Shown piece after piece: positions 421 through 53,601 of a DNA stretch of 64,000 bases. The notes beneath the pieces were generated by a model, which saw only the letters and a list, made by a program, of their open reading frames with translations, made no database searches and was not told where the DNA came from. The position numbers were made by a program, and so were the translations under genes. This stretch comes from Cymbomonas tetramitiformis (lineage: Eukaryota; Chlorophyta; Pyramimonadophyceae; Pyramimonadales; Pyramimonadaceae), in the NCBI GenBank assembly GCA_001247695.2, contig LGRX02034248.1, positions 1 through 64,000 on the forward strand. The letters run 5' to 3'. The first letter of the stretch is position 1; the number at the start of each line of letters is the position of its first letter.

Positions 421-590
421 TGTAGCCAGCTACAAAATGGGCCACCCCGGGAGCTTTTGTAGCTATAGCTACAAAACGGGCCACCCCGGCAGCTTTTGTA
501 GCTATAGCTACAAAACGGGCCACCCCGGCAGCTTTTGTAGCTAAGCTACAAACCCGGGTAGCTACAAAAATGGTAGGGGGTAGCTACAAA
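421..590. repeat. 39-bp tandem repeat with internal palindrome
   Basis: Three copies of a 39-bp unit containing GGGCCACCCCGG start near 439, 478 and 517. Each is flanked by the near-palindrome TTTTGTAGCTATAGCTACAAAA, split over adjacent units. The array decays into further GTAGCTACAAA words up to 590, just before the stop codon of the minus-strand ORF. It could form hairpins in the 3' UTR of that gene. Unit and period were read directly. Confidence 0.8.
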
Positions 591-599
591 AACGTCGTG

Positions 600-3500: not shown

Positions 3501-4016
3501 CTCTGGGCGCCGGACATCATCAGACTCCCCTTCTGCCGGGGGACTCCAGTCACTGGCTCGGTAAACCTCAAAGCGCCCTGCGGCACTGATGAGATTCCCT
3601 TGCTCGCTCCCCACGAGGGAAGAGAGGGAGGATGCTGCCGGTCCCGACGTCGGTTCCTGACGGACGACCCTACTACTCGCACTCTTGCTGGACGCAGGGA
3701 GTGGGGAGAAGGGAGCTGCCGAGGGGTTCAACCCCTTAGCAGAGCGGTCCGAGTCCGACCCGGAGCCGGCGCTTGCCGCCGGCGGTGCCGGAGCCTCGGG
3801 CGACGCACGCTTCCGGCGCGCCGGCTGCCGTAGCGCCGAGCTCAATGCGAGCTCGGACACTGGCGCAGCTCCACTGACCCTCGCTGGTGAAGGGGCTTTT
3901 GGTGGCGAGGCCCTACGGGGCCCACCAGACAACCCTGGAGGGGCTCTCAGGGGCGTGCGCGCCGGTGTAACCTCGAGGGCTTCACCGCCGTATTGGCGCG
4001 CAAGCGCGCGCCGCAC
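600..4016 (-). CDS. Large GC-rich protein with Trp repeats and coiled coil, unknown function
   Basis: An uninterrupted 1138-codon ORF. The N-terminal ~150 residues are Pro/Ala/Ser-rich. Residues about 200-345 hold several Trp-containing repeats of the type AFxAW or AFQAW about 30 residues apart, resembling the short helical centrin-binding repeats of SFI1-like proteins. Residues ~590-700 form an Ala/Glu/Arg coiled coil with repeated AAEERR blocks. A Cys-rich cluster (CARCGCGHE, then CGFC) sits near residues 880-930, followed by a Gly/Pro-rich linker and a charged C-terminus. No catalytic domain is visible. The reading frame is open above the first Met, so the start is uncertain. It could be a structural host protein or ORF1 of a retroelement extending off the window. 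I do not recognise the family. Confidence 0.6.
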   Translation of the reverse strand: MRRALARQYGGEALEVTPARTPLRAPPGLSGGPRRASPPKAPSPARVSGAAPVSELALSSALRQPARRKRASPEAPAPPAASAGSGSDSDRSAKGLNPSAAPFSPLPASSKSASSRVVRQEPTSGPAASSLSSLVGSEQGNLISAAGRFEVYRASDWSPPAEGESDDVRRPEQLDVVQSRGRESRIQPNPAWRGERRQSMLALALRQWSTWALNSAQRRARVSLPSRQRATARLAWVAWRARTDQSAHQRELRRLAFQAWNDVTQQVAQLQGLFDKGSRRRVESAFAAWRQHVVQTQGLWRRGRRQAGAVFMAWHQQTMLAKERSTWWVGARRHRMTQMGRRCLREWRRLPRTTPVSSDSSQGTSARRPVRKAGTSSGVSSCSDSDQKSMWQDIRRGLKRLGKDHPLPGLMWFQLEDYGLSEDGAYRLEIHQQSVSESRVLMQQKREDPHNSLGRCRFSVFAINASRPGELVRQGADLQEVRRAVVAAVRMSGRTRKSHRGLRKSGAAPPSSAAPGGNWSNRFAPLSSSSEEEHPAERPRPRTQAPKPSGPSRPVPRTRKPSRAPSAPHPGPTSSGNTSSSPESTSSRNSQDLRELKEAWQKESQAREAAAEARLEQLSRQLQESQRAAEERRISDQRAAEERRVSERRAVEERWAADRLAAEARETTRQLAVDESVAQQVAAEERRAAAEAQLEERLQAVIESQVQRLALVQASPSGPVESAARGPSAAASSPVQETPISREGHELVEPTSVVTCDVENRDVQSPPEESRADVTASPPHSWDFISLPIRVCDALRKHVVGYANSGIDAQRLFYDAARRYRALGQVAGCLHPSNQIRQCLKAKFSDENRVLGAQVIHSLTTALASVAESCARCGCGHEESPVRMWACQASAKRSVVALMKKVYLPVCGFCAADVWPGAFDHFPAVMPPPIPKAADTPEDGGGMVPQLEHSEPNELSEMPGAGSHGGPGGSGSGDPGGPGGPGSPGEDPGGDGEDGDGDSQFTFSSSSRYREPRSHYSRKDEQHALKEATRAMEKAVDKYHTEVEGSSHVFGRLLRFVRQVREVRELEPVRYAMEMARLGPLESGGEEKVLSDHSLLSEVARHCFGKLSSEYRELSSVLTEAREGKNLTLDVIVVPLAR

Positions 4017-6129
4017 TCCCCCCCCCTCTCACGGGAGCGCCAATCCCGGCTGTCTGACCCGCCAGCTGCGCCCCAGAACTCCCCAGAGCCTGGGCCAACC
4101 GACAGGCCTGCAGCGCGAGACCCCGACCGACCGGACCCCACGGCTGAGCCGGGGGCGGCGCCGGCCCGACCCCCCCCCACGCCGGCCCGACCGACCGAGG
4201 CATTCCTCTTCATCCGAATACATGGGCATAGTATGCGTGCTATGCGTGAGATCTAATTTAGCTAAAACCGAAAGTGCACACGACACACGTGGCAACTAGC
4301 ACCCGATCCCAGGAATACGCCACTTGCGCGCGAGCACAAGTAAGCACACCGGCCGAAGCGCGGAGATTCCCGAATAGGGGGGACTAGAAGGCTAAATTAA
4401 AGGTAGGGGAAACCCCGAACCAACCCCGAATTTCAGCAAAGGCTTACGCAAAATTGAAAAATTTGCGCAGCGCTTCCGCCGCGAAGGGTCGGAATTGCCG
4501 AAAAACGGAGGCGATTTGGTCCTCCCGCACCTGCGAGTCCAAAAGCACGGATATGCGTGCTATGCGTGTATGCGTGCTAGGACTAAGGCAACGCTCGCAC
4601 CTTAAAAGATTGTCGTCGAGCTAGATTTCTCCACACCGACGCGGCTCCAAGCAACCTGGAACCATCAATCCCACACACCACCGCGCAACAAGAACGAGAG
4701 CACAGGCATTCTCGATTTCGTAGTGCAAGTACTCGCTAACTAATCGCACAAGGCGGGGCGGGTTGATCAGAACTTGCGCAAGAAAGACAAGGAAGCAACG
4801 TGAAAACACGAACTAATTACCATTTTGTAGGAGTCTACACCTTGACTTCTTCTCTTCTTTACGGTTTCGGACTTATACTATTCTACACTTATTAAACGAC
4901 CGCACGAGGTATGCTTACGATTGGTCAACTACAAGACTTCGGTTTCGTAAATCTATATAGTTATGCTTTTGCTATCAGTGCATGCTTTCAATACACAATA
5001 TACAGCAGTTACGGTTCTTTACTTTTATGTCTTACTTTTCAGTTCAGTTCATCTCCCCGAAACGGGTTACTCTTAGAGTTCTTATACATTCAGGAACTCT
5101 TTCCATAACTCAACTGTACTGAGTTCTCCGTACAACAGTCTAGGCACCTCACATCAACATCATTCTGATCGGTCCTACTGTACTCCGTACTGAGTACTCC
5201 TGCGTTTTATACTTAGCCGTTTTTCTTGCTCTTGTGCTTGCCTCCTAGCACAGAAACCTGTTGCAGCTATCACTACGCGAACACGTTGATATGTATGATA
5301 CATCCTATCCTAGAAGGGAACCCTTGATGGGCCCTGACAACAATACATTCATGTATTATTATCGGGCCTCTCATGAGAAGCTCGCGCCGACGTAACTTCG
5401 TTCTAAGGTGAGGCCACGACGGCAGCAAGTATCATGTGCCGCATTGAAACATTAGGATAGCAAGTACCGATCGGTCACTGGATGCGCAGTGCCGGTTTTT
5501 TCCTTTAGGCCATACTTAGCAATGACATGTATAAAGGGTTGTCATCCCCTGACTCGTAACGGACAAACGTCAACACCCCAACCCCCAAGGCAACATGAGC
5601 AAGCGCTACCGACATGGTCAAACGTCACGGTAGGAACCTAGTCGTAACTCATCGGTAGGATAATTGCTCCCACGAAATGTGCATTAGTAAATTAATGCAA
5701 ATGTATTGTCGATTCTAATCATTCATGTGAGAGCGTCGTGAGAGCGCCGTACGAACGCTGTTAGACTTCTCCCAATCGAATGCAAGTATTTGGCGAATAC
5801 TCCGCTCTTACAGCGCTCTTATAGAGCTCGTCCAGCGATTTCAACATGGATGATCGGAATCGACAATACTCTTGAGATGTAGTTCTGCTAAGCATATATA
5901 CCCGTAACAACCATCAATATATTGTCGCTGGATCCTTGGGATCGCGTTCGATAAGCGTGAGATCGATTTGATCTGACGCGTCCAGCACATCGAGTCTTGC
6001 CCGACTTGTGCGGCGCGATCTCACATCGAATTGCGGGGCGAATATGTTGTCAGACTCGAAATTCCGGTCCGGGCTTAATTATGCCCACGTGGCGGTCATC
6101 GGCCGGTATTTCTGAATCTGGACTTTTCC
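4017..6129. other. No gene seen; short TATGCGTGC words
   Basis: About 2.1 kb without a supported gene. The upstream end is GC-rich and may be the 5' region of the 600-4016 ORF. TATGCGTGCTATGCGTG words occur near 4230 and 4555. The rest is AT-rich with only short ORFs. Confidence 0.5.
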
Positions 6130-6217
6130 TTACCTCTGACCTTTATCGTCTTGGCATGAAGTGAATTACCTTACGTACTACCTCTGACCTTTATAATCTT
6201 CACCCAAACCAAATTTT
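6130..6217. repeat. CCTCTGACCTTTAT short direct repeats
   Basis: The words CCTCTGACCTTTAT and CTTCACCCAAACCAAATT recur here and again as a denser array at 20,405-20,602, with a single copy at 19,273. In both larger places they stand directly upstream of a CAG-headed dispersed repeat, so they probably travel with that family. Confidence 0.7.
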
Positions 6218-6332
6218 CATCTCCGTTCGCTGTACGTGTTATGAATTTAGATATGGGTCATCTGAATGACCATCTCCGTTCGCCTTTTTCTTTATTTGCT
6301 ATGTATGAGGAAAGCGAACGGAGATGTTCATT

Positions 6333-6653
6333 CAGCAGCAGCAGCAGCAGCAGCAAAGCTCGAATCCCAACGGGCGATACAGTCGAATGTTCCATCTCAC
6401 GATCGCCAGACGCTAACGATGACAGTGACACAACAGTCGCGTGTATGTACCACGACGCCACCCACGCGTTATGGCATGGCATGCTGGGAACCAAAAAGCA
6501 AAGCGCTGTCGCGCACATGATCCTGCGGTCATATGATGTAATGGCGATATCCATGTGTTAACATCGCATGGTAATTATTCGTGCTGTCCAAAATGCTGTC
6601 CAAAAAGATCGACGCCTAGTGGAGATCGCATATTTGTGATCGACAGCGCCTAG
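6333..6653 (+). repeat. CAG-headed dispersed repeat, copy 1 (~300 bp)
   Basis: Starts with a (CAG)n run, continues through a conserved body (AAGCTCGAATCCCAACGGGC, later CACCCACGCGTTATGGCATG) and ends in the hairpin GATCGCATATTTGTGATC plus GACAGCGCCTAG. Near-identical copies lie at 20,603-20,904 and 20,918-21,222. No protein is encoded. It looks like a SINE or MITE; I could not find clear target duplications. Confidence 0.8.
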
Positions 6654-6687
6654 AATAAACTAAACTTGGCCTATGCCACGTCAATCG

Positions 6688-6880
6688 GCAGCAGCAGCAA
6701 CAACAAAGCTCAAATCGCAACGGGCGTCACAGACGACTTTCGATCTCACGATCGCCAGACGCTAACGATGGCAGTGCCGCTGCATTCGTGTGCATTTACC
6801 GCGACGCCACCCACGCGTTATGGCATCGCATGTCGAGACGCACATATTAAGCACTGTCGCACACATGATCCTAACGCTCC
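6688..6880 (+). repeat. CAG-headed dispersed repeat, copy 2 (truncated, diverged)
   Basis: Same head and body as copy 1 (GCAGCAGCAGCAACAACAAA, then the CACGATCGCCAGACGCTAACG block and CACCCACGCGTTATGGCAT), with more substitutions and lacking the terminal hairpin. Confidence 0.7.
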
Positions 6881-9675
6881 GGGGAGGACTTAAAATGCCA
6901 GATTATATTTGATACTCGGCATTGTTCGACGGTTCCGCTCGCAGCTCAACAGCGGAGCGCTGATTTTTGAACGTGGCTTTTTATGTGTACACTGCCCACA
7001 TAGGTTGCATGCTGTTATTTTGTGTGTTTCGTTTTTGGGACGCGTTGCGCGCATGAGCATGGATGTGCGCGCGCATGCTTGTTTTCGATATTCGTCGTTT
7101 TGTTAACGACGTGCGCATAATCAGTCGTTGCTTTGATCGCATGTGTCCTCATTCAGTATGTAAGAACTGCATGCATGCGATTGTGCGCGCCACATGCGTG
7201 CATGCTGCGCATCGGCATGTACCCGCGCGCGTGTGCGTTGATTGTGAGCATGCTCTCGCAATGGCAAGGATAATATATTTCCGTTGCCAACACGTTTGCG
7301 GTATGTGTAGCGCGCGTACGAAGAGCGGCAGCCAATTTATCATGCAAGTTGTTGTAACAGAAAGGTGTGTGTGTGTGTTTGGCACAGGGTCATGATGGCA
7401 GAGGTCGATGACGGAGACGCCATTCGTGCTTCGATTTACAATGCTGCGACCGATCGAAGTAGCGCGAGGTTTGATGCACGTTCATGGCTGTGAAATGCAC
7501 TTTTATGTATATATGATATAAGAAGCGCTTGCCCATTAATATCGCCACACGTGAAGGCAGCCAACCATCATGCATAGGCTCGCGCCAGCCGCGAGTGGGA
7601 ATTGCAAATGTCACTCAGTCGAATGATGAATTATAACGAGCAAGTAGTGTATGCATGTAGCCGCAGTCAGGTATCATTCCGATGGTTACATGTTGGATAT
7701 TCGCACGCATGCATTATCGACACCCACCATTCACACAGGAATGCACTACGGGCACATCAATATATGTGCCAAATCATGGAAGCAAAGTAGCTCTTGCTTC
7801 TCTCTCACACACGAACACACACACACACACATCACATACTCAACACTAAGCACTAAGTTACACACCACGGAGAGCATCATATATATCACGCCCTGCACAT
7901 GCACGTTGATGCGTTTATCGGATGATGAAGGAGGACGATGTCCACGAGACTCGCACAAGTTCTTGGTCTGGGTTCGATCCCCGGCGTCCTGCATCAGTAA
8001 ATATTGCTTTATTCGCACGTTTTCCGGTTGGATACACAATTACGCATGCACAATCATATAATAATCCGCATACACAGCCAATCATTTGCGTCTCGGCATA
8101 ATGTGATATTTTTTATTCGCAAGGGTAATTGTTAAAGATTGCATTCGATATACGCATCAGCCTATTTGCGCACAGTTTGTGCAGCATGCAGTCATAATAA
8201 GATTTTCACATTGTCAAAATTTAAAGTACTAATATGATGATCATAGTAGTATGCCATGCGTGCTAGATGCCAACTGCCACAGTGCTACAAACGTGCCCCC
8301 CTTTGCTATTCGTCCTAAAACACAAATGCCAGCTCAAGATGGGCACAATAATTCTATGCATGTGCAAGGGGTATCAATGGACATCAGATTATGCAGTGCT
8401 CGCCTCAAGCACCGCCTCAGTCACTATCTCGGCTTGTGCTCAAAATTATTGATGAATATCAGCGAGTGCGTTGTGAGTGCATACGCCCGTTGATGCACAC
8501 ACGCACACGCACTAAGCACACACGCACGCGCGTGCGACACACACATACACACACATAATAAAGTGAACGAGCTAATGCGCATGCCAATCAAAGCTAGACG
8601 TATATATACATATATATGTATACAACGTTGTATATATATATATATGTGTGTGGGGACTTCAATGCAGCCGATTTCCCTCTCGAATTTCACGGTGTGCGCT
8701 CGAGCACCAACGTGTGATATTTTCATAATATACTTGCAGTGTAACACTGGCTGAGCTTGCAACGTGGCTGCACACTTTCTTTTTTGGCTAGGATGTGTGG
8801 GTGCGGTATATAGTCATGCCCTGATCTATTCCCACAAGCATGTTTCTCACATCCACTGGATTGATGGTGGGTCTGCTTTTGTCAGCGGGCAACGTGTGCA
8901 TGCTACATGCGACATGCATATCGATTGTTAAAGTGGCAAGAATGTGTGTGTGCGCGTGCGCTTGCAGTCGCGAGTGTGCGTGTGTGTGTGTGTGTGTGTA
9001 TGAGTTGTGTTTGGATGCGTGTGCAAGTATGTAATTATGCGCGTGCATGAGTGTGGCTTTTCCTTGGACCGACTCCTTTGGCACACCGTAGCCGCAGAAG
9101 ATCAATTGCACTATGTACCCACACCGGGGATCAAAGCATTCAGCCATGATTGTGTGTGTGTGTGTGTGAAAGAGAGTGAGCATGTGTATCACATGTATGC
9201 AAAATGGGCATGTGCACCACCAACTCATGTATAGTGAGCCTCCATTATTTTTCACATGATGTTCGCCCTCACCTAAGCAATTGCCACAAGCTGACGGACA
9301 TCGCCATACATGTGTAGCAGAAAAGTAACTCTGCTACGAGGGTCATATATTGCTTGCTCAGACTTCAGCTAACACTCCAAGAGGTTGTTGACATCAACAT
9401 TATCCACATCAACATGTATAACGCTCCATATATTCTTCACGATTTGTTGCAGATATGTCTCATCAATTAGGCAATCTTAGTATTGATTATGCAGTTAGCG
9501 CTAATTGCGCGCAGCGCGCCGCGATGTTGATGTATTGATCGGTGCGTGAGCATTTACATTCTGCACATTCAACAGATTGTTTTCGATGCCATGCATGTGC
9601 AAATGCTAAATAGTATGTAAGATATGTATGCAGAGTGTCTGCTTATTCGACTACACGTGTATCTACACTACAATT
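6881..9675. other. Microsatellite-rich DNA, no gene seen
   Basis: About 2.8 kb rich in alternating purine-pyrimidine sequence. (CA)n lies near 7805-7830, (TA)n near 8600-8650, (GT)n near 8975-9000 and 9152-9168. GCATGC and GCGCGC words are frequent from 7000 to 7300. ORFs here are short and made of these repeats. Confidence 0.6.
7931..7993 (+). other. tRNA-like fragment
   Basis: Contains GGGTTCGATCCCC, a good B box and T arm with a 5-bp stem (CTGGG/CCCGG), followed by CGTCCTGCA. The 5' AGGACG can pair with the 3' CGTCCT. Only about 30 nt separate the acceptor strand from the T arm, too little for both D and anticodon arms. It is probably a degenerate tRNA or the head of a tRNA-derived SINE, not a functional tRNA. 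Confidence 0.35.
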
Positions 9676-10137
9676 GCCAAGCGTAAGCAACGTGCGAAAG
9701 CTAAGAAAACGTTCGTACTAGAAAATAAGTAATCATAGTAACTATTTGTGTCCCCGATAATCATATTGGATAGCCAAACCTTGCTCCGCCATTCAATATT
9801 TGCAACTAGCTTACATTACATGTACGCCGCCACCATATATCATATCTAGCTATATAACACATTTAATATCTCACATCCCAAATCATATCGCCGTACATAC
9901 ATAACAACCGCCCAACTGATAACTAATGAATACCTGAACGAAAGGGATATATCATCATCCATACACCGCCATCAAGCGCAACCAACACGCGAACGCTAGG
10001 GAAAAGTTTGCACTAGAAAGTAACGTATCATTATAGTAACTAGCTATGTCGCCTTGGTAATCATATTGGACATTCAAACCTTGCTCCGCCATCCTCTATT
10101 TGTAACTAGCGTATACTACATGTACGCCGTCGACATA
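9676..10137. repeat. ~296-bp tandem duplication, second unit interrupted by the MULE
   Basis: Unit A (about 9676-9972) and unit B (from about 9972) share long stretches such as AATCATATTGGA, CAAACCTTGCTCCGCCAT and ACATGTACGCCG. Unit B is broken at 10,146 by the MULE and resumes at 19,112, where ATATCTAACCATATAACAC matches unit A near 9845. Unit A is thus an in-window empty-site reference for the insertion. Confidence 0.85.
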
Positions 10138-10146
10138 ATATATAAT
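10138..10146. repeat. MULE target-site duplication, left
   Basis: ATATATAAT, identical to 19,112-19,120. A 9-bp duplication is the hallmark of Mutator-like elements. Confidence 0.85.
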
Positions 10147-10250
10147 GGAAAAATATTTATTTTAGATTATTTATTGCTGATTTTAGATTAACTCTTTTTC
10201 ATGTTGATTTTAGATTAAGTTTTCTTGATGTCATCCGGCTATGACCGGTG
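10147..10250 (+). repeat. MULE terminal inverted repeat, left
   Basis: Starts GGAAAAATATTTATTTTAGA and holds three copies of TTTTAGATTA before ending at ACCGGTG. It pairs with 19,007-19,111 on the opposite strand, with identity high except near the outer ~10 bases. The internal repeats are candidate transposase-binding sites. Confidence 0.85.
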
Positions 10251-10320
10251 GTCCTTTTCACGACTCGTGTTCAAATAATGTGCACACGCAGGTCAAACGC
10301 TGTAGTTCCCGCTTGCCATC

Positions 10321-11060
10321 ATGAGGAAGCCTCCAAAAAGCTTTAAGAAGGTTTGTCTCACTTGTGATAATGGTGGGCGCCGTTGTAATAGACACTCCCG
10401 GCGTGTTCTGCTTGAAAATAAGGCCCCCCACTATCAACCCACAGCTTTCAAAGGCACTGTATTCGACGAGTATGTCCAAACTGGCTTCCGGCTAAAGTTT
10501 ACAGACACTGTGAACCTATGGGAGAGTGACGATAGTGACGGTAACCCTATATGGGACTTTCGTAACCGCTATGTGTATCTCGAATACACGGAGGGTATGC
10601 CTTGGGGAGGGGTTGTACCTTCACGTGGGAACTGGGGATATTCACCGTACGACACTTGTTCTCTGGTGGGTCGTTTCCCTTGTTTCACTACACTAACCAT
10701 GTTGCAGGGTGGCAACTCGACGATATTTTGCAAACTTTCTTATCGGTGTTATACAACCGGGAAAGAAACATGTCATACATGGCTCGATTCTTGTATTGGT
10801 TATCACTATTAGCTACTAGGGAGCACCGTAGCGTCCACCATTGCTCAGCGGGCGCTATGCTTACAATTAGGCAATGTGGAAACACTATTGGCAAACTTTG
10901 TGCAAGTTGTGCTTCAGAACTAACTGTGCACAATAGGGGGTACGATTTAAGGCACGAATGGTGTGCTTCATCACCTACGGGGGTGAGTCTATGCAAATAC
11001 GTTATGGTTGACTCTCCTGTTTTCGCAGAGGAGTACTCACCTTGCACTGTTGTACGTTAA
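10321..11060 (+). CDS. MULE cargo protein, unknown, frame break near 10,600-10,680
   Basis: Two overlapping frames together look like one ~245-residue protein. The first half starts at 10,321 (MRKPPKSFKKVCLTC) and has Cys/His-rich basic sequence. The second half continues in another frame to 11,060 with CASCASEL and HEWC, a second Cys cluster. The shift is near the G-runs at 10,606-10,615. Putative zinc-binding ends flank an aromatic-rich centre. I recognise no family. It lies just inside the left TIR and is convergent with the next gene, overlapping it by four bases. Confidence 0.5.
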
Positions 11061-11494
11061 ATATAATGTGGTGGCCAATACACCGGGGCTGGTTTGCTTA
11101 GACGCCTATCATACATTTTGTATAAAGTAACGCAATAGCGCACTCCCTCAAAACCTTCAGAAGCTACTCTATGTTTGCACCGCGCATCGCACTTTAAAAC
11201 CTTATGGCTTTCAGAGAATTGGAGAAGGGTGCCCTTGCTATCCTCTCTAGGCGACTCCATCTCCAGAACCGCGTTCTTGTAGTTTCCAAGAAAAATTATG
11301 TATTGATGTGACACATCTTTTCTGTCCTCGTGTCGCTTCACTTCGCACTTTCCGGCTAGCATGCACGACACATACAAGCACCAATCGCCGTCTCGCTTGT
11401 AATCCGCGTCTATTATTTCTAAGATTTGACCTGCTAGGATGTAAAGCTCTTTCTTCCAATACGGCTTGCTTGCACTTGTTAGCGGATCGTCCAT
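11057..11494 (-). CDS. MULE cargo protein, 145 aa, unknown
   Basis: Intact ORF starting MDDPLTSASKPYWKKE and ending in PVYWPPHYI. Acidic and basic residues are balanced, and there are five Cys (two in CDARC). The pattern suggests a small globular beta-rich domain, but no motif is recognised. It is on the same strand as the methyltransferase-like gene, with a 237-bp gap that contains no other supported gene. Confidence 0.5.
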   Translation of the reverse strand: MDDPLTSASKPYWKKELYILAGQILEIIDADYKRDGDWCLYVSCMLAGKCEVKRHEDRKDVSHQYIIFLGNYKNAVLEMESPREDSKGTLLQFSESHKVLKCDARCKHRVASEGFEGVRYCVTLYKMYDRRLSKPAPVYWPPHYI

Positions 11495-11731
11495 GTAAAC
11501 TCCTTTTTTCTTGTGCCAAGGGTGGGGCGTCCCGAAAGCACATGTGCCATCTAGCTTAGGGGCAAACCCCTCTTGCTCTTGCCCATGTTAAACCACCACC
11601 CAACATTCCAACCCTCCTTCCCTCCTTTCTTGCCTTTTGCCTCGTTTGCGCAGCCACGCTCTATTATCTTGCACGTTTGTGCATGCAACGTTGCTTCAAA
11701 TTCCGTGAGTAGCACCTTTAGCCTTTGGTTA

Positions 11732-12744
11732 TCACTTATGAGCACCGGCCGCCTGTTTCCGCGAATCCCACAAAATAAGTCCTCGATCCTTGAAAGATGC
11801 AACGTTGTGCTCTACGCCATCATAAATAAAAGGTACGCTCCCAGCACTTTCCGGGTATCCTCTGTCTTTGTACAGCAATTTGTGAAACTCACTAACACTT
11901 TTCTTTAGTAAAACTTTTGTTGTCGCTGAGTTGAAAAAAATATACCAGGCTTCAACTTCTCCTAAACTACGGTCGAACCCCGGATACTTTGCAGGCGGTA
12001 GCAAAATCTTTAAGCCAAGTCTTTGGAACGCACTAGCTCTACTATCCCCAACCACAGGACGTTCGAACGAATGCAATAGCTTCAAACACACGATCGAGGC
12101 GTTGGATTGAAGACACGCAGCTAACAAAGGTTCGCACTTCCCTCTTGCATATGGCAAGGACGATATTATGATGTCTACTTGCGGGTTGAATTCTTCCCAC
12201 TTGATTTTCTCTAAGTCTAGGCGTCTTATGCCTTGCGCAGGATGCTTATCGCTCAGAAAGATCGTCTTCGGTTTGAACCGAACTAGGTTGTTGTAAACGT
12301 AGCGAGGTCCCTTACCACAGCAAAAATCCCCAATTTTTTTCCGTGAAACAAACTGCCAATAACTGCTAATAGAGGCGTGTATTGTTGTGCGATTGTGGGA
12401 TAAAAACTAGTGCCTTTATCACATACCCTTGGTATCGTTATTTTAAATGGTAAATTTTTCATAGGAGCACACCTCGTTGACAACGCACTCCGTTTTCGTT
12501 TCGGAAACAACTTCCTCGCGTTGTCGTCGTTTGCATTGTCGTTCGCATTGTTGTCCACAACGCGCTCCGTTGTTTCATACGGTTCAATCTCGTCGCATGT
12601 CGCAATCTCCGCGTTCACATTGTTTTGCCCTATGGGTTCAGTAGGTTGGCATACATCGGAGAGTGTTGGCGACTGGTTTGAAAAAAAGATTTCGTCCACC
12701 CATGCGTCGTAAGCTACCATTGTATTATGCCTATCACAGCACAC
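11732..12744 (-). CDS. SAM-dependent methyltransferase-like protein, frameshift at A7
   Basis: The N-terminal frame (12,744 to about 12,335) starts MCCDRHNTMVAYDAW, is acidic, then has a nuclear-localisation-like KRKR stretch. At a run of seven A on the coding strand (12,334-12,340) the frame changes. Reading continues with KIGDFCCGKG, a good motif I (FxGxG) for SAM binding, then FLSDKHP (motif II-like acidic turn), then DIIISSLPYA in the position of motif IV of amino-methyltransferases (D/N/S-P-P-Y/F). The middle Pro is Leu here. The order I, II, IV and the spacing fit N6-adenine-type DNA or RNA methyltransferases. Target and activity are inferred; the SLPY variant may weaken catalysis. Total about 335 residues. 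Confidence 0.55.
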
Positions 12745-12894
12745 TTCGAGCGAGGATTGAAGCTAACGCGGAAAAAAATAAAGCAAGTTGACCTTCTTTA
12801 ATTGCATTCTCACTCCCTAAGATATGTACGAAATATGATTTCAACAAAATCAAGAGCTCTCCAACTTTATATTGCGAATACCCATTTCTTCCGC

Positions 12895-13029
12895 CTATGG
12901 ACTCGAATTGCGCATTGGGCGTATCTCTTCGAGCTTTGCATACGGTCCCAATATCATTGCCACTACTCGCCGTAAATCTTGCTTGCTAGGTGCTTTCGGA
13001 CAGCATACACCGCACTTATCACGAGGCAT
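12895..13029 (-). CDS. Possible 44-aa Cys-rich small protein
   Basis: A short ORF starting MPRDKCGVCCPKAPSKQDL, with CGVCC resembling half a zinc site. It lies between the methyltransferase-like gene and the palindrome array, on the same strand. It may be a first exon or the upstream part of a broken gene, since an open stretch follows the TAG. Weak evidence. Confidence 0.3.
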   Translation of the reverse strand: MPRDKCGVCCPKAPSKQDLRRVVAMILGPYAKLEEIRPMRNSSP

Positions 13030-13128
13030 CTTTTAGTTAGTCACAATCGGTCGTAAATCGGCAACTTGTTTCTCAAAATACTTCCCCCTTGCAACTTTCC
13101 GAGTCGCGCCAGAAACGGTATCCCAGTT

Positions 13129-13266
13129 ATTCACGGCCGTGAATTCTAGATTCACGGCCGTGAATCTTTCCGAATGGAACCAAAAACCGTTCGATTTTAA
13201 TCGAACGGGTTTTGGTTCCATTCGGAAAGATTCACGGCCGTGAATCTAGAATTCACGGCCGTGAAT
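13129..13266. promoter_or_regulatory. Palindrome block 1: 138-bp inverted repeat with four ATTCACGGCCGTGAAT sites
   Basis: The perfect 16-bp palindrome ATTCACGGCCGTGAAT stands at 13,129, 13,150, 13,230 and 13,251. The block itself folds back: arms CTTTCCGAATGGAACC and GGTTCCATTCGGAAAG surround CGTTCGATTTTAATCGAACG. Sites within each arm are exactly 21 bp apart, two helical turns. It lies in the divergent region between the minus-strand methyltransferase side and the plus-strand dioxygenase gene. Confidence 0.85.
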
Positions 13267-13400
13267 ACGCATCTCTTGAAGGGGTTAGGCGGGCCCAACA
13301 GACAGTGAGCCGCAAAAAAACCAATACCCGCACAATCACAGAAACTGTCGTAGATAACTCTGGGGCCACGTCTTATTATTTAGTACTATATCTTTTTTTC

Positions 13401-13537
13401 GGGGTGGGTGTTAAAGGGGGGTGAGAGGGGGTGAGTGGGGGCTGAGAGGGGGGCTGGGTGGGGGGTAAGGGGGGGGTCGGGTGGGGGGTGTTAGGTGGGG
13501 GGTCGGGTGGGGGTGTTAGTGGGGGAGGGGGCTTGGG
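13401..13537 (+). other. G-rich tract with G-quadruplex potential
   Basis: About 137 nt of GGGG to GGGGGGGG runs separated by GT, GA or GTGTTA. It lies between the two palindrome blocks. The minus-strand ORF over it is Pro/Thr low-complexity and not a gene. Confidence 0.8.
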
Positions 13538-13548
13538 TCCCAGCTTAT

Positions 13549-13707
13549 TCACGGTCAGAATTTTAGATTCACGGCCGTGAATCTTTCCGAATGGAACCAA
13601 AAGCCGTTCGATTAAAATCGAACGGTTTTTGGTTCCATTCGGACATGGAATTCACGGCCGTGAATCTGGAATTCACGGCCGTGAATCTGGAATTCACGGC
13701 CGTGAAT
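13549..13707. promoter_or_regulatory. Palindrome block 2: four more ATTCACGGCCGTGAAT sites
   Basis: Perfect copies start at 13,567, 13,650, 13,671 and 13,692, and a degenerate copy at 13,549. The inner hairpin is almost the same as block 1 (GAATGGAACCAAAAGCCGTT and its partner). The last three sites are again 21 bp apart. Block 2 ends 78 bp before the start of the dioxygenase-like gene. Confidence 0.85.
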
Positions 13708-13784
13708 ATGCAAGTTAGTGGCGCTTGTATTGCCTTTCGTGAAAGTTGAAATATATTATAACCCGAACGTAAATCGTAACGACT

Positions 13785-15031
13785 ATGGAACAATCAACAC
13801 TTGCCGAGCTCTGCGAATGCGGACAGTTAAACAAGAAGGGAAAGCTCATTGAATGCAAGCAAGACCCGTTGACTATGGACCACGCGGGCAAACCATGCAC
13901 ACGATCTAAAAGAGGCAAGGGCGAGTTGAGATGCGCAAAATGCAGCGGTCAACAAAAAAAGAAAGAGCCTGCCGTCAAGGAAACATTTTTGGACGACTTT
14001 GACCGTACGCGAGCTATAGGTTTCGCTAACACCTTCGTGGTGTCTTTACCAGACGAGTCGCGAGAACATCTGGAAAGGCGGTATTCGTGTATGTGGGGGG
14101 AGGCCGTGAACAAGGTCCCGGACTGGAAAAATCTTCCTCCTGGGGTGGTAACCCTCACTGGAGGAAAGCTGGAGGTGTTTCACGAGTCCGCGAAACACGG
14201 GGGGGGGGAGTGCAGACCGACTTCTACGAGCAATATCTCACAGACGAAGATCGAAAGCACTTGAACGTCTTCGTACACGAGTTGGAAACGAAGGTTATGG
14301 AAAATCTTCGTAACGAGTACACAATCGAGAATCAAGCATTCTTAATCAACGACAATCTCGTTCGGGAGATTCAGGGGGCGCCTAATACGGTCCTCTCCAC
14401 CCTTACCGGGTGGCAACCTTGGCACTTGGACCAGCCACTTAACCAACCTCTCACCGAACGCCCTCATCACTTGGCCATTGTGGCCTACCTTGGCCCATCA
14501 TCCCCAACAAGGTTGTGTTGTGCACCAACACCGTCCTTCGACGCGTCGGTTGAGCTCCTAGGCCAATCGACGCAAGAGAGGTTGCAACTCAACTGCGATG
14601 TCCAATTCCACGAGCAGCGAGCCCTCATGCTCTCGAAGGAAACCCTCGACGCGTATGCGACGAACGTTGGGGGAAAGGATAAAGTGGGATTGGGCGACTG
14701 CGCGGTGGTGGGAGGGGTACACCAAGGGGTGACCAACGCGGATGGCACGCCCCGGGTGGTGTTCTCCGCCAACTTGGCGTTGAAGGGCGTGGCGTCCTAC
14801 GACCCTGATGTTCAGCTGAACCCCGTGAACTCGGCCTTACATTGGGGTTATCTCGACTTCGTTACGAAGGAGTTCGTGAAGTACTTTCTAGCGGGCACAG
14901 ACCTCACCAACACGGTGGACGAGGAGCATAAGAAAGTCCTGAAGGTTTTGGCACGCGATGTTGAGAAAGCCTTAGACAAAGCCGCGAAGGGACCCGTAGG
15001 GAAGGAACAAGCCAAGCGAAAGCGTACATAA
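13785..15031 (+). CDS. 2-oxoglutarate/Fe(II) dioxygenase-like protein, frameshift at G10
   Basis: The first frame starts MEQSTLAELCECGQLNKKG, with a Cys-rich N-terminus (CECG, CAKC) that may bind zinc, and runs to a ten-G run at 14,199-14,208. The protein continues in the -1 frame to 15,031. In the second part WHLD (H at 14,423, D at 14,429) gives the HxD iron ligands, VHQG (H at 14,720) the distal His, and Arg at 14,753 is 11 residues on (H-x10-R), the 2OG-binding spacing. GDCAVVGG precedes the distal His, as in phytanoyl-/prolyl-hydroxylase-like folds. The C-terminus is Lys-rich. Members of the superfamily oxidise methylated bases, proteins or small molecules; next to a methyltransferase a base-demethylase role is attractive but unproven. 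Confidence 0.55.
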
Positions 15032-15215
15032 TAGGCTTACAAAATGCTTTACTTTCAAGACGTGTATGCCATGCTTGGACACTAGCTCAATAGGTGAATA
15101 AACATGAACATTTACAAGTTTATGCATATTATTACTTGTTTTTGCAAACGAATATTATTTGTTTTACTTGCTCGTTATCGTTACTAGTCTGTGCTAATTC
15201 GTTATATTCTATATC

Positions 15216-15722
15216 CTATATTAGCTCGAACTCGACGTTCAAACGTTCAGAAATATTCAAACTTGCATTGCGCTCGTGCCTCTCGAGAGGCACCACCATC
15301 CTCTGACAAGTTTTAGCGCACTTGCTGCACAACTTGTACGACACAAGGGAGGTGAATTTTCCATCGTCGTCGTTTCCATGGTCGTGGAAAACAATGCGAG
15401 TGGTTGCGATCTCCTCGCACCACACCCACGCACCCTGCTTGCGGTTGTCGACAGCGTAGTGGTCGAGCATTGGGAAACAATCGAAAGGAAACTCTAATGG
15501 CCAAACGCCAGCCTCCCCATACTCAACCATGCATATGAGGACCTTATGCAACTCGCACCGCTTGTTGGGGCGAGTGAGTCGATAGTGGGGATCCTTCGTA
15601 GGGTTCTCGTCTTGCCCGCGGACCACGACGTGCTTTTGCCAAAGCGCTGGGCAATTGTACGGGGCGGGTAGGTAGCCTCTGGAAGATTGATAGTCCTCGT
15701 CCCTATTTATTACTCTGTTCAT
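15216..15722 (-). CDS. MULE cargo protein, 168 aa, unknown
   Basis: Intact ORF starting MNRVINRDEDYQSSRGY. His/Cys-rich with CSKCAKTC near residue 130 and several Trp/Phe-rich segments in the centre. Possibly a small zinc-containing protein. No family recognised. Convergent with the dioxygenase-like gene. Confidence 0.45.
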   Translation of the reverse strand: MNRVINRDEDYQSSRGYLPAPYNCPALWQKHVVVRGQDENPTKDPHYRLTRPNKRCELHKVLICMVEYGEAGVWPLEFPFDCFPMLDHYAVDNRKQGAWVWCEEIATTRIVFHDHGNDDDGKFTSLVSYKLCSKCAKTCQRMVVPLERHERNASLNISERLNVEFELI

Positions 15723-15919
15723 TTTTTTATTTGCGGGCTAAGACTTAGTCAAATAGGTTTAGTCAAATACAATAGCGTCTATAACGTATATGGTATAAGA
15801 TATCGTATAGCGTGTACTATATAATAACATATCACGTTGTTCGCATACATACTCCCTTGTGTTCGCATCTTACTATCACTTATCGACCCAAGGAAACTTT
15901 GTTAAAGTACGAAACAAGT

Positions 15920-16204
15920 ATGCCCCAACCATGTTGCGACCACTGCGAACGGAAAGCGTGGCTCCGCGCTCGGTTCAACCGGGACTTGCAAGACCTGCAA
16001 CAATCTTTCGCCAACAATTTTGAAGGGTACCCCGACCACGAGCGGTTCCTTGCAAGGTGGGCGGTAGTGGGTAGGGACCTAGCCGATATTCCCTTGCCAC
16101 AACCTGACCGGCTCACTTGCAAAAGTTGCTTCAAGAACATTTGGCTACCACATGCTACCACGGATATTTACTTCACCTCCTGGGCCAAGTGGGAATTTTT
16201 ATAA
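15920..16204 (+). CDS. MULE cargo protein, 94 aa, two CxxC motifs
   Basis: From the Met at 15,920 the ORF begins MPQPCCDHCERKAW and later has CKSC, giving a CxxC...CxxC pair about 50 residues apart as in a small treble-clef or zinc-ribbon protein. Helical charged residues lie between. A longer upstream start at 15,812 is open but hydrophobic and unlikely. Convergent with the transposase gene, 112 bp away. Function unknown. Confidence 0.45.
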   Translation: MPQPCCDHCERKAWLRARFNRDLQDLQQSFANNFEGYPDHERFLARWAVVGRDLADIPLPQPDRLTCKSCFKNIWLPHATTDIYFTSWAKWEFL

Positions 16205-16315
16205 AGTAAAGCAAAGTAGAGCAAACTAGATTGATTCAAAAAAATACTTGAGAATAGTGTGTACACAAAATATTAATACTTGCTATTACACGTATGTACA
16301 CCTTAAGAAAATTGT

Positions 16316-18934
16316 CTATTCCTTAGCTACGCATAGTCCGCACAACCATGTTCCTGCTGGGATCTTGCTTAGGCTTGGACGCAAGCAAAAAATATGGAAG
16401 CCCTTATTGCACACGTCGCATAACAACATTTCATCTCCGTTGTCTTCTTCACCGCACAGTTCGCACGATAAACTTTTAGGAACTTGCTGCGAGCATCTGG
16501 CTTCCATGTCTAGCTCTGCCATCTCGCGCGCTCGCTTGGATGCTTCCCGTTTCAGTTTCGCGGTGATCTTCCCAAGGGGTTGCCTTTTCAAGGCGCCAAC
16601 CGGTTTTCTCGGGCGTCCCACTTGTGGGTGTCGGCCAATTATGTCGAGATGTTTTTCAAGAGGCGCCTTAAACTTCCCTTTGAATAAGCCAACAGCAATA
16701 CTACATGCACACGTGACGCTCTCCGCGTAGATAGGGCACATACACCAGTGGTGCCCAAATTCGGTGACGTTATTAGCGTCCAATGGTCGTAAGATCACAA
16801 AAGACTTGTAGGTGTTCATGAACTGCTCGAAGGTGACAACCGTCGCAGGAGGGTGTTCAGGGTCGCGCATAAGGGCGAGGAACTTTACCACAAGGGGAGC
16901 AATCTCTTTCCTTTTATCCGCGATAGTGGAAGCACTCAACTTCTCGAAGGTCTTAAGGGAGGGAACGACATAGGAAGGACTGTCTGTAACCCCCAAGACG
17001 CCGGTCGTGCGCGTCATAAGCTCGAGCATGTTGTTGTCAATCATAAGAAGCGCCTCCCGCCAAATAGCTTGTGTAATAACTGGAGTCGTAGGTATTGGGT
17101 GTTGCCCGTCGTAGATCGTCTCCTCGTGCATGTATTTTAGCGCAGAAGGATGGAATACCTCGAGTTGGAGTTGCTTACGCAGGGTCATCTCGTCTTTCAC
17201 GTGTCTATTCACGCACTCGGGACTATTCTGCGTAGATTGGATCCCTTCTGGCATGAAGCCAAGAACCCACCCACCCCACTTGCCCCACCAAGTCTCCACG
17301 AACCAGTTGCAAATATACTCTTCATCACGCTTGTATAGTTCGATGAAGAGCTTGAATGCACTATCACGAGCACCAACGATGGTGATGTTGTGTATATCCG
17401 TAACGCCCTGCTTGAAGCCGTTAACGTTATGCGCGTCGTTGAATAGCGCGGTCTTCTCGTTAAGCTTCATCATGCAATGCGACCAACATATCCCTTGCGT
17501 AATCTCTTCCGCGACAAGTGTACAGAGGTTCGTAGGTAACCTCAAGTGCTCTAGAACATGCGTGATGGTTTCCGGAAGCTTGGCGTTAGCGTTGAAGAAA
17601 GCGAGGGAGTGATCCAAAGTATGATAACGAGGTTGCCACACTTTCTGGAAACCAAGTTGCATAGCCGCGATCAAGCAAAAGTCCACTATTTGCGAAGCAT
17701 AGGCGTCCTCGTGCGATTTGATGGCGAGCGCCCCGAGACGAAAACGCTTATCCAAGTACGAAGACCCGTTGCATTCAAGGGGTAAGCCTTGCCAGTTCGT
17801 CTTGTACGTGTCGTCGCGTGAGCGGTGATCCTTTGCGAGAAGTACCTCGAGTTTCCCCCAAGTGGTGTAAATCACGCACCACCTTTTGCGTTTCTGCGCT
17901 GCGACATAATCCTTGACGAGTTCGGTGTAGTTCTTGTAAAGGGCACGCAAGTTAAACTTCCCTTTGTAAAACCTTTTCGAACGCGTACTCCACCCTTGGA
18001 CGACAAGCATGTTCTCTAAGATATGCACGAAGTACTCAGCAGACTCGCAAGCAAGAATTGAGATGAAATGTGCTTGAAGGTTCCGTTCATAAACGGAAAA
18101 GTCTTCATTCCAACCCGCCAGCTTCCAAGTATTAAGCTCATCTTGGGTTGCTTGGGCTTCGAAAGGAATAGGAGGCAGGGTGTTCGCGGAATTCTCGGCG
18201 TAATGTTCCACGGTTTCGAAGCCGCTCGGTTGGAGTACTTGTCCTTCAAACATGCAAAGCGTCCCCGCCGTTTTGCGATCGGTCACGGGGATGGCCAACA
18301 AGTTGGAGGTCTGGCAAACCTCCATGAACTGACCGCATGTCTTTATGGTTCTAAGCTCCAAGATTTGTTTGCGATTGTTGTACACAAAGCTCTTTATGAC
18401 CTTGTAATCAACGACGTCATCGTCTTCCATGGCTGTGGTGACTGCGGTACTAAGCTTCTTAAAAATGGCTTTAGGCGGAAGCTTTTCCTTGATCGCCTCC
18501 TTACACTTGTCCTTTAAATCTTTCGACATACCCTTTCCTATGAAATAAGTATGGTCGTGTGTCCCACGGGTGTACATGTTGCATGGAATAGTAGGGCATA
18601 AGGTCGTTCCCTTGACAATTTTGTAGTAAACCTGACAACCGTGTGTATGCTGTAAAGCACACCTGAAGTTTTGAGGCACGGAACCGTTTTTTTTCGACCT
18701 ATAATCCTTGCCAGACTTGGTCACACCCTCGAGGCTCAAGGTTTCCATCTTCTCTGTGCACTCTACATACGATACACCATTGAGGACGGTACTCCACACT
18801 AAGGGGACACGGGTACGTTTCGACTTTTCCATGTGGTTAACGAGGAATTCCTCTTCATCCTCTTCATCCGAATGATATATATCTTCCACATTTTTTCCCG
18901 GGCTTGTGAACTCAAAGTCGTCGGCCGCAGCCAT
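16316..18934 (-). CDS. MULE transposase with C-terminal PHD finger
   Basis: About 872 residues from the Met at 18,934; an upstream Met at 19,009 would start inside the TIR (numbering below uses that Met). An acidic N-terminus is followed by a FLYWCH/WRKY-like zinc finger (C117, C125, H151, H153). The RNase-H-fold core has Asp at ~400 in RDDTYKTNW, Asp at ~466 in TLDHSLAFF, the C-x2-H pair CWSH at ~508-511 and Glu at ~598 in NSPECVNRH, matching the MULE DDE pattern. A SWIM-like CMC...CAC motif follows near 770-790. The C-terminus is a C4HC3 PHD finger (CELC, CDVC, FHIFC, WLCGLC), which in other proteins reads histone tails. No frame break. It should cut and insert the 8.9-kb element. Confidence 0.85.
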   Translation of the reverse strand: MAAADDFEFTSPGKNVEDIYHSDEEDEEEFLVNHMEKSKRTRVPLVWSTVLNGVSYVECTEKMETLSLEGVTKSGKDYRSKKNGSVPQNFRCALQHTHGCQVYYKIVKGTTLCPTIPCNMYTRGTHDHTYFIGKGMSKDLKDKCKEAIKEKLPPKAIFKKLSTAVTTAMEDDDVVDYKVIKSFVYNNRKQILELRTIKTCGQFMEVCQTSNLLAIPVTDRKTAGTLCMFEGQVLQPSGFETVEHYAENSANTLPPIPFEAQATQDELNTWKLAGWNEDFSVYERNLQAHFISILACESAEYFVHILENMLVVQGWSTRSKRFYKGKFNLRALYKNYTELVKDYVAAQKRKRWCVIYTTWGKLEVLLAKDHRSRDDTYKTNWQGLPLECNGSSYLDKRFRLGALAIKSHEDAYASQIVDFCLIAAMQLGFQKVWQPRYHTLDHSLAFFNANAKLPETITHVLEHLRLPTNLCTLVAEEITQGICWSHCMMKLNEKTALFNDAHNVNGFKQGVTDIHNITIVGARDSAFKLFIELYKRDEEYICNWFVETWWGKWGGWVLGFMPEGIQSTQNSPECVNRHVKDEMTLRKQLQLEVFHPSALKYMHEETIYDGQHPIPTTPVITQAIWREALLMIDNNMLELMTRTTGVLGVTDSPSYVVPSLKTFEKLSASTIADKRKEIAPLVVKFLALMRDPEHPPATVVTFEQFMNTYKSFVILRPLDANNVTEFGHHWCMCPIYAESVTCACSIAVGLFKGKFKAPLEKHLDIIGRHPQVGRPRKPVGALKRQPLGKITAKLKREASKRAREMAELDMEARCSQQVPKSLSCELCGEEDNGDEMLLCDVCNKGFHIFCLRPSLSKIPAGTWLCGLCVAKE

Positions 18935-19006
18935 GTTACTTTCCTCTCGTTTGGCTACGCGACAACTGCTTTGTGTAACGTAGTGTAACGATGGCATGGA
19001 TGCATG

Positions 19007-19111
19007 CACCGGTAATAGCCAGATGAGATAAAAAAAACTTAATCTAAAATCAACATGAAAAATGGGTTAATCTAAAATCAGAGAGAAATAATCTAAAATA
19101 AATTGCCTACC
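19007..19111 (-). repeat. MULE terminal inverted repeat, right
   Basis: Reverse complement starts GGTAGGCAATTTATTTTAGA and matches the left TIR through the three TTTTAGATTA words to ACCGGTG. It ends immediately before the second ATATATAAT. Confidence 0.85.
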
Positions 19112-19215
19112 ATATATAATATCTAACCATATAACACATATAATGTCTCACATTGCAAATCATACCGCCATGCATAACAACCGCCCAATCAATAACTAAT
19201 GAGCAATATATTTAA
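19112..19215. repeat. Target duplication (right) and rest of tandem unit B
   Basis: ATATATAAT at 19,112-19,120, then sequence homologous to unit A at about 9838-9935 (AACCATATAACACATATAAT, CATAACAACCGCCCAA). It completes the repeat unit the MULE entered. Confidence 0.85.
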
Positions 19216-22726: not shown

Positions 22727-24443
22727 GTGCGGGTGAGCCAGCACTTTACAGAGCTGGAAGAAGAGGAAGAGGCTGCCAGAGGCCAGCCTGAGGGCCAGGC
22801 CCTAGTACAACCTCAGGTCCAAGCCCCAGTGCAACCACAGGCACCAGTGCAACCTCTGGTGCAAGCACAAGGGCCAGTAGTGATATTTGAGGAGGAAATG
22901 GAGTACACTGACTCCACACGCCTCGCCCTTGGTACTATACCCATTTACACGGGCACCAAGGAGGAGGACCGTCCCAAGTTCCTGAGGGAATTCGCCAACA
23001 TGTGCGAGAACTTTGTGCGTCAGCACAACGCCAACATCAGGAAGAAGCTCAGGTCCGTGGCTGGCACGCTCACAGAAGCGCAGATCAAGGCCCTGAGAGA
23101 GACACCTCCTGACTTTGAAACATTGTGGGACATTATCCCCGCATGTCTGGATGGCGAGAACTCGCAGACCCTCAGCTGGTGGCGTGAGAATTATGAGAAA
23201 GGGGGTGTAGTGGCCTCCAACATGGACAGAGTCCTCAAAGACACTAGTGAACATGGCCCACTTGAGGGTTCTATCCCATGTGCCAGGCGCGCCCCCTTTC
23301 AATGAGATGAATGCTGGTGCCACGTGGGTAATAGCGAGGCCAGCGACTAACCATGACGCCGAAGGGGAAGTTTCCGACGACTATCTGACTGATGGGACTT
23401 CGTTGAAGGGCTTGACGGGACATGACGGTACCCGTGACATGCAGTACTTCTATGCGCTCAGGGGTTTCATCGCTGCCCTTGACAAGAAGTTCATGATGAA
23501 GGGAACTCAAGAGAAAGTTGATCTGTTGACACAGAAGCCGCAAGAGTTGGGGCAGGATGGGCTAACGTACATGAAGATGTGTCAACGCAGGGAGATGCAG
23601 CTCAGCACTGGTAAACAGCTGAGCGACGCAGAGCTGCGTACCTACATCGAGGACTGCGTAGAGAACCTGCGCATCAAGATCTTCCAGACACGGGTGAAGG
23701 AGCAGCTGAGGGCACAGTTCCCGCCGCCCAATCGGGTGACCTGGAAGGACCTGGAGTCCATCGTCGAGGTACAGGACAAGCTCAAGAACGACGCGGAGTC
23801 CTGGATCCTCATCTTCCTGCAGGAGATCACCAGGCGATGTGGCTGCCAGTACTCTACCTGGGAAGCTCGTCAACATGGCCTCGACCTCAAGGCGATAAAA
23901 AACTCGATTAAGAAGATTGAGGCAGCTAGGGAAGGACAGTCAGGCGACCTGGAGGACAGCAAGAAGGCGGAGACACCGCCCTCTAAGAAAATGAAGAAGG
24001 AGGTGAATGTGGCCGAGAGATTGAACCAAGAAGCCCTCCTACAACAAGACGCCGCCGCCAGCAGAGGGCACCCGCACGAACGATAAGCCCAAGTGTTTAC
24101 GCTGTTTCGGAGGGGGCTGGCACGAGTCCGAGCCTGAGCAGTGCAGGAGTGGCTACAAGCACGTCAAGATGCCTGCGTGCGGGGTACCACGAGGACAGGC
24201 TTGGTTCCAGCAAGTGGTGGGACGCGGAGAATGCCGCCCTGCGCATGTACAACTTGAAGAACCGCTTCAAGAGCTCCGACTGGGGCATTCTGGTGACGGA
24301 CTGGCAGCAACTGTCCAACGACGAGAAGGACAAGTATAGAGCACCAGTCAAGAAACTACCAGCGGACAACCACAAGGGTACAGCTGGCAACCCTGAGGCG
24401 TTGAAGGCTGAGTACCAGGGCATGGTGGCTGCCCGAAAGACTG
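22727..24443 (+). pseudogene. Gag-like region with zinc knuckle, several frame breaks
   Basis: A Gln/Pro-rich N-terminus leads into a capsid-like helical region (IPIYTGTKEEDRPKFLREFA). The frame changes near 23,245 and the capsid region continues to 24,086 with a Lys-rich tail. A third frame gives CLRC...WH...QC at 24,093-24,140, a zinc knuckle-like motif. The last frame (to 24,460) has WQQLSNDEKDKYRAPVKK, reminiscent of an HMG box. At least three frame changes mean this copy cannot make a normal Gag unless some are sequence errors. Confidence 0.6.
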
Positions 24444-24449
24444 CCAGTC

Positions 24450-53580: not shown

Positions 53581-53601
53581 CTTAAAATAATAATTCAAAA
53601 C

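Follow-up and report, generated by a model that had tools for sequence, protein, structure and literature searches.

A Mutator-like transposon of Cymbomonas tetramitiformis with methyltransferase-like and dioxygenase-like genes

Structure of the Element and Its Genes

The window analysed here, a stretch of 64,000 nucleotides from the green alga Cymbomonas tetramitiformis (assembly GCA_001247695.2, contig LGRX02034248.1, positions 1 to 64,000), contains a transposon that fits the Mutator-like elements (MULEs) and harbors, besides its transposase, a methyltransferase-like gene (MT), two dioxygenase-like genes (diox1 and diox2) and three genes for Cys-bearing proteins, as shown in Table 1. From left to right, the order is left gene (+), diox1 (-), MT (-), a palindrome cluster, diox2 (+), Cys1 (-), Cys2 (+) and transposase (-). 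The genome was assembled from hybrid nanopore/Illumina data and contains 43.6% unclassified repeats (PMC10675990); the words methyltransferase and methylation are not used in the available main text of that paper.

The first-pass annotation had described a complete element, and the 9-bp target site duplication, the terminal inverted repeats (TIRs) of ~105 bp with 89-91% identity and the open transposase were all found. The inverted arms 10155-10199/19059-19103 are 89% identical, and the arms 10195-10250/19007-19062 are 91% identical. The target is a repeated sequence, and therefore an uninterrupted copy of the insertion site was found nearby, with the element-free joined flanks aligning across the junction to the repeat unit 9678-9929 (261 bp, 79%). 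The 9-bp duplication was observed in the window and in L039, i.e., in two of the four copies with both ends visible; none was evident in L040 or at the L044 element, and the left end of L043 reads N. The small Cys-rich proteins of the earlier annotation were also recovered, as the three Cys-bearing proteins listed in Table 1, of which the left-gene protein is 47% identical to the L042 version and 54% to the L044 version.

Table 1. Features of the element and its insertion site, in window coordinates.
Feature	Position	Strand	Characteristics
Left target site duplication	10138-10146	.	ATATATAAT; read from sequence
Element body	10147-19111		Between two ATATATAAT flanks
Left TIR	10147-10250	+	~105 bp, begins GGAAAAAT; inverted-arm search and alignment
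Left gene	10321-11060	+	Cys-bearing protein MRKPPK..., 246 aa; open in L039, L040, L043; window frame break ~10650-10710
diox1	11057-11811	-	HxD...H-x10-R protein; overlaps MT end in +1 frame; window frame break ~11575-11644; no ATG before ...FNMGRT
MT	11732-13029	-	Motif I DFCCGKGP, motif IV SSLPY; 440 aa when intact; at least two frame breaks in window copy
Palindrome cluster	13128-13712	.	ATTCACGGCCGTGAAT units, 86-bp inverted arms, around G-rich tract 13403-13531; inverted-arm search
diox2	13785-15031	+	Second HxD...H-x10-R protein; ~414 aa when intact; frame break in G run ~14201
Replaced tract	13850-15290	.	150-bp-bin identity, window vs L044 and L043
Cys1	15219-15722	-	Small Cys-bearing protein, 168 aa, open; 86% in second family
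Cys2	15920-16204	+	Small Cys-bearing protein, 94 aa from ATG, open; same frame open in L040, L043
Transposase	16316-18934	-	Presumed D of DDTYKTN, D of TLDHS, E of QNSPE and SWIM-like C-x-C finger; C-terminal PHD finger
Transposase PHD finger	16331-16465	-	Pfam PF00628, E 7.9e-12; residues 868-912 of stop-to-stop frame
Right TIR	19007-19111	-	Inverted-arm search and alignment
Right target site duplication	19112-19120	.	ATATATAAT; read from sequence

The Transposase and the Classification of the Element

The window transposase is open, with 916 aa from stop to stop and 872 aa from the ATG at 18934. The residues which we take to be its DDE triad, together with the C-x-C and C...H-x-H patterns, were assigned by eye in both families described here on the pattern usual in MULEs. 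Neither SWIM nor FLYWCH gave a Pfam match for the window transposase, and PF10551 (MULE transposase domain) gave no match to it at E<=10. It was also absent among the 128 listed PF10551 matches of its own genome (best 150 of 214 candidates scored); this genome thus holds at least 128 PF10551 MULE transposase matches, which are distinct from the present family. When the transposase was compared by hhalign with PF10551-bearing frames of the same genome (eight loci, five usable frames and two short wrong-frame pieces left in the alignment), DDTYKTN/DATYKTN and TLDHS/LVDKD were in register, but weakly so, with a probability of 0.5 and an E of 0.13. The MULE traits present are the 9-bp duplication (expected 8-11 bp) and the long inverted ends (~105 bp here; 71 bp with 89% identity in the second family), and the element, placed by these two traits, fits a MULE whose transposase is far from PF10551. 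MULE groups with such duplications and inverted ends are tabulated in PMC6446971. No relatives of the transposase, MT, diox1 or diox2 were found in the viral collection.

The Methyltransferase-like and Dioxygenase-like Proteins

The FCCGKG and SLPY motifs, on which the first-pass annotation had based a methyltransferase-like protein, were both located in the MT frame 11732-12406. DxCCGKxP and SSLPYAR are invariant across the six MT proteins of alignment A1, the most distant member of which is 48% identical; the second-family MT, which carries DFCCGQAP and SSLPYAR, is excluded from this alignment. Because the family has an invariant S-L-P-Y instead of the D/N/S-P-P-Y/F motif IV of amino-methyltransferases, MT was not filed as an N6-adenine or N4-cytosine enzyme. 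The 50 structural neighbours listed in the MT fold comparison include several RNA methyltransferases (METTL5, PH1948, FtsJ/FTSJ1, Spb1, KsgA and ErmC), whilst 11 are not methyltransferases (seven ribosome-assembly particles for which the matching chain is not named, two SAMTOR, one unnamed protein and one GID1A-RGA complex); the methyltransferase status was taken from titles or protein names. The comparison lends weak support to a class-I S-adenosylmethionine (SAM)-methyltransferase (Rossmann-like) fold for the predicted MT. The SET domain fold differs from this proposed fold.

The HxD...H-x10-R signature of 2-oxoglutarate (2OG)/Fe(II) dioxygenases, reported earlier for one protein, is present, but in two proteins, and which of them was meant cannot be told. 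In diox1, it lies in the minus-strand frame 11057-11587 (RHED...CKHRVASEGFEGVR), and in diox2, in the plus-strand frame 14030-15031 (WHLD...VHQGVTNADGTPR), each with HxD, a distal H and an R eleven residues past that H (ten between). H145, D147, H198 and R209 of diox1 are invariant in all seven rows of alignment A4, and HLD and GVHQGV...TPR of diox2 are kept in every ungapped row of the nine-row alignment A3, in which P0010, P0016 and P0017 miss part of the columns. The two sets of alignments showed no relation by hhalign, and a single dioxygenase is ruled out by the presence of two such proteins. No TET/JBP family appeared among the Pfam, PHROGs and NCBIfam matches to E 10, a profile absence compatible with distant kinship, and the Pfam scan of element frames recognised neither a glycosyltransferase nor any other modifying domain. 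In public data, five MT relatives at 60-95% were obtained besides CYMTET_30269, on contigs of 1.8-6.1 kb, and four diox2 relatives at 56-58% (ENA, NCBI and JGI sources) besides five Cymbomonas proteins; some of both may be Cymbomonas itself.

Overlap of MT and diox1

The diox1 gene occupies the +1 frame of MT, with an overlap of 80 nt in the window, 59 nt in L042 and 44 nt in L044, and its conserved part starts upstream of the first ATG (ISDN...LHA-TCK...GWNVGW-FNMGRT). The gene model CYMTET_30269 fuses MT ...GDVEAW with diox1 RKRLPISDS; the gene models of this genome were produced with BRAKER2 from transcriptome and protein evidence (PMC10675990). The putative junction bases TG/GTA and CAG/GCG (slash at the junction) were found in all three lineages, i.e., the window family, L044 and L042. 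This conservation is weak evidence for splicing, since the GT is dictated by the W-Y codons and the remainder is partly constrained by both frames. The MT tail, which would be lost on such splicing, shows protein-level conservation in P0001-P0004, L042 and L044, with the frames of P0005 and L039 ending earlier, and its ratio of nonsynonymous to synonymous substitution (dN/dS) after EAW is 0.18 and 0.40, with the third pair saturated. As the tail is itself conserved, both products could be made. MT and diox1 as one protein was ruled out, because the open copies have two overlapping frames; an in-frame fusion of ~671 aa was likewise rejected, as L044 has three separate frames and the value came from chaining.

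Second Family, Third Lineage and Module Exchange

A second family is represented by L044/L045 (contig C13101), a 9.7-kb element with distinct inverted ends beginning GGAATAGAT. Its transposase is 47-52% identical to that of the window family, with a PHD finger (E 2.2e-11) in a frame-broken tail, and its cargo includes the left gene, diox1, MT (two frames), Cys1 and diox2. Contig C13101 matches CYMTET_30271 at 100% and CYMTET_30269 piecewise at 97-99%. A second Cys1-like gene (7362-7916, 37% to Cys1) adjoins the L044 transposase. In L042, three open genes (left gene, diox1 and MT) keep this order and their relative frames, with 42-58% identity, and no transposase was matched in the stretch examined. 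The core of the gene set is common to two transposase families.

Compared in 150-bp bins, the window shares 98-100% identity with L044 (inverted) over 13941-15140, against 67-85% with L043; in the bin 15141-15290 the values are 99% for L044 and 94% for L043, and beyond the replaced tract on either side they are 37-93% for L044 and 92-100% for L043. The identities flip within the tract, which shows that the window diox2 came from the second family and that diox2 is a module exchanged between the two; L040 shares this state with the window copy. Compared with the window copy, L044 has the diox2-Cys1 block in the opposite orientation. The palindromes at 13128-13712 are nested and form a foldback structure, and related inverted palindromic repeats flank the block on both sides in L044; such repeats may have mediated its inversion or exchange.

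Copies, Frame Integrity and Selection

At least one frame break interrupts each of MT, diox1, diox2 and the left gene in the window copy; intact frames exist in other copies. The window breaks may be assembly errors or decay, and that of diox2 is common to many copies, with 23 of the 106 listed matches beginning at residue 122, the break site. Since only the best candidates were scored, the counts are minimum numbers of copies, and the fractions given apply to those candidates. For MT, 37 of the 103 listed matches span residues 1-440 without a stop; for diox1, an open 253-aa frame without a stop was observed in 107 of the 150 scored matches (best 150 of 746 candidates); for diox2, 27 of the 106 listed matches extend over residues 1-398 of CYMTET_30271, at 99-100% and with no stop; and almost all listed transposase matches (49 of 52) lack an internal stop. 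L043 spans element positions 16-8965, its first bases being N, and has all seven frames open.

A listed diox1 match lies 4262-5309 bp downstream on the same strand for 32 of the 52 listed transposase matches (again among the best 150 of 746 diox1 candidates). Half of the 20 transposase matches lacking a linked diox1 are on the minus strand with <4.5 kb of contig remaining on that side. Absence of the cargo genes from other copies was looked for, and the genes were found in many of them. Deletion derivatives were also obtained: L039, of 4.8 kb with a perfect 9-bp duplication, keeps both ends, the left gene, a frame-broken MT and diox1, and has neither diox2 nor the second half of the transposase, while L017 lacks MT as well.

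The dN/dS ratios were calculated by Nei-Gojobori for pairs among L042, L043 and L044. They are 0.23 for diox2 (L043 vs L044, dS 0.79) and, near saturation, 0.14 for MT (L043 vs L042, dS 2.78), 0.11 for the MT core (L043 vs L044, dS 2.51) and 0.15 for the left gene (L043 vs L044, dS 2.44). The remaining pairs are saturated at synonymous sites, including the transposase pair and all three diox1 pairs (pN 0.26-0.27, pS 0.81-0.94). Purifying selection on the cargo genes is supported by these ratios. Given the many copies and these signs of selection, the cargo genes matter to the element.

Other Features of the Window

A long interspersed nuclear element (LINE)-like element was detected at 47958-56979, with a reverse transcriptase (PF00078, E 1.2e-22) in 51955-53580 and a weak upstream endonuclease match (E 0.021). 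Its Cys/His region at 47958 is presumably protease-like, by motif only. The last frame carries the motif GNPPF, which we take to resemble the adenine methyltransferase motif IV; kinship of MT to this stretch was rejected, with hhalign giving an 11-residue match only, away from the motif. Ty3-like retrotransposon frames occur at 23211-29411 (integrase zinc-binding PF17921, E 5e-9), and their gag-like frame has a close relative at L042 7223-9901. An open 341-aa frame at 30906-31931, within an AT-rich stretch, matched nothing significantly in Pfam and may belong to a virus-like element, and tandem coding-like frames (MRGPRMDP/GPCEVHASP units) are located on both strands at 35668-37161.

Discussion

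Several known systems resemble the present element in part. The VANDAL MULEs of Arabidopsis also encode an accessory protein, VANC, which counteracts their epigenetic silencing (PMC10398659, PMC5735166); compared by description only, VANC is a sequence-specific binding protein, whereas the present cargo appears to be enzymatic and includes three candidate enzymes. Fungal DNA transposons carry TET/JBP dioxygenase genes that are swapped between transposon lineages, but the available text names other superfamilies (the words MULE and Mutator do not occur in it, and MuDR is named for plants and Phytophthora) and describes no methyltransferase partner (PMC12730594), and the present dioxygenase-like proteins differ from the fungal ones in having no TET/JBP profile match. 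The MuDR/MULE elements of Phytophthora with a SET histone methyltransferase likewise join a MULE to a methyltransferase-type epigenetic gene (PMC6446971, PMC12730594). Rehavkus shares the MULE relationship, the 9-bp duplication, inverted ends of 26-400 bp and a transposase PHD finger, yet has one reading frame, a 3'-side minisatellite and animal hosts, with no enzyme cargo listed in the part available (PMC6446971). Dinoflagellate and charophyte retrotransposons are also mobile elements with a nucleic-acid methyltransferase; they differ in being retrotransposons, in having C5 cytosine enzymes and in that the accessible description gives no dioxygenase partner (PMC5890265). A literature search, with most subscription journals outside its coverage and the sources seen in part, found no description of a MULE with a methyltransferase and a dioxygenase. 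Relative to VANDAL/VANC, the fungal TET/JBP transposons and the SET-bearing Phytophthora MULEs, the difference lies in the combination of three candidate enzymes in one MULE.

The cargo, being intact in many copies, suggests that the element brings its own chemistry to mark or unmark DNA or RNA, and our preferred, though tentative, reading is that the conserved accessory set (MT, diox1, diox2 and the three Cys-bearing proteins) of this recently active MULE family might serve against host silencing or in guiding transposition. MT would add a methyl mark to the nucleic acid of the element (DNA or transcripts), diox1 and diox2, if they are 2OG/Fe(II) dioxygenases, would oxidise methyl groups of either a host silencing mark or MT's own, and the transposase PHD finger would read target chromatin. 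We infer the dioxygenase activity, the nucleic-acid substrate and the anti-silencing role; of the readings at hand, action on base or RNA marks agrees best with the motifs and the weak fold match. What stands of the original interpretation is a complete Mutator-like element with methyltransferase-like and dioxygenase-like cargo, multicopy and with signs of purifying selection, whilst its one dioxygenase-like gene has become two. Its writer and eraser together are a hypothesis, and the supposed eraser might just as well act as another writer, by oxidative hypermodification.

The derivatives that have lost one or other cargo gene (L039, L017) would agree with host genes captured in the Pack-MULE manner and spread by hitch-hiking, with no role for the element, and capture of host gene fragments by MULEs is known (PMC6431247, PMC6446971). 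However, passenger genes should decay, whereas the dN/dS values are 0.11-0.23, tens of copies carry full-length open frames, and the core set is shared by two families whose transposases are ~50% identical and is found in part in L042, so that such capture is disfavoured and highly improbable. The RNA methyltransferases among the structural neighbours of MT would fit an action on RNA: MT might put an m6A-like mark on transcripts of the element or on RNA of the host, and the dioxygenases might edit marks on RNA, the cargo tuning expression and not DNA silencing, which we consider rather unlikely. It is also conceivable, although improbable, that the dioxygenase-like proteins turn a base or methyl group into a bulky or polar shielding mark, as JBP does for base J. 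Two HxD...H-x10-R proteins unrelated by hhalign exceed the needs of one eraser, and TET/JBP dioxygenases are present in fungal DNA transposons (PMC12730594), but the scanned frames yielded no glycosyltransferase or other modifying domain by Pfam and no TET/JBP profile match.

A more far-reaching reading is a whole modification circuit carried by the transposon, made up of a nucleic-acid methyltransferase and two oxidising enzymes of different kinds, in which the overlap would couple MT to diox1 and diox2 would be a module exchanged between families. In three lineages diox1 is read in the +1 frame, and no ATG precedes its conserved part; one gene might therefore yield both MT by itself and a fusion of MT to diox1, through splicing (EAW TG/GTA...CAG/GCG) or +1 ribosomal frameshifting. 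We regard this circuit as doubtful; if true, it would be a built-in writer/editor switch inside one transposon.

Transposons and host silencing are engaged in an arms race, in which, to our knowledge, elements bringing their own counter-measure mostly carry a single such gene. In the present case, two transposon families each combine three candidate modification enzymes, a set that appears to be a trait under selection in a transposon lineage. With well over a hundred scored copies and nanopore data for a sequenced alga, the writing and editing of base or RNA marks for the benefit of a transposon would be directly testable.

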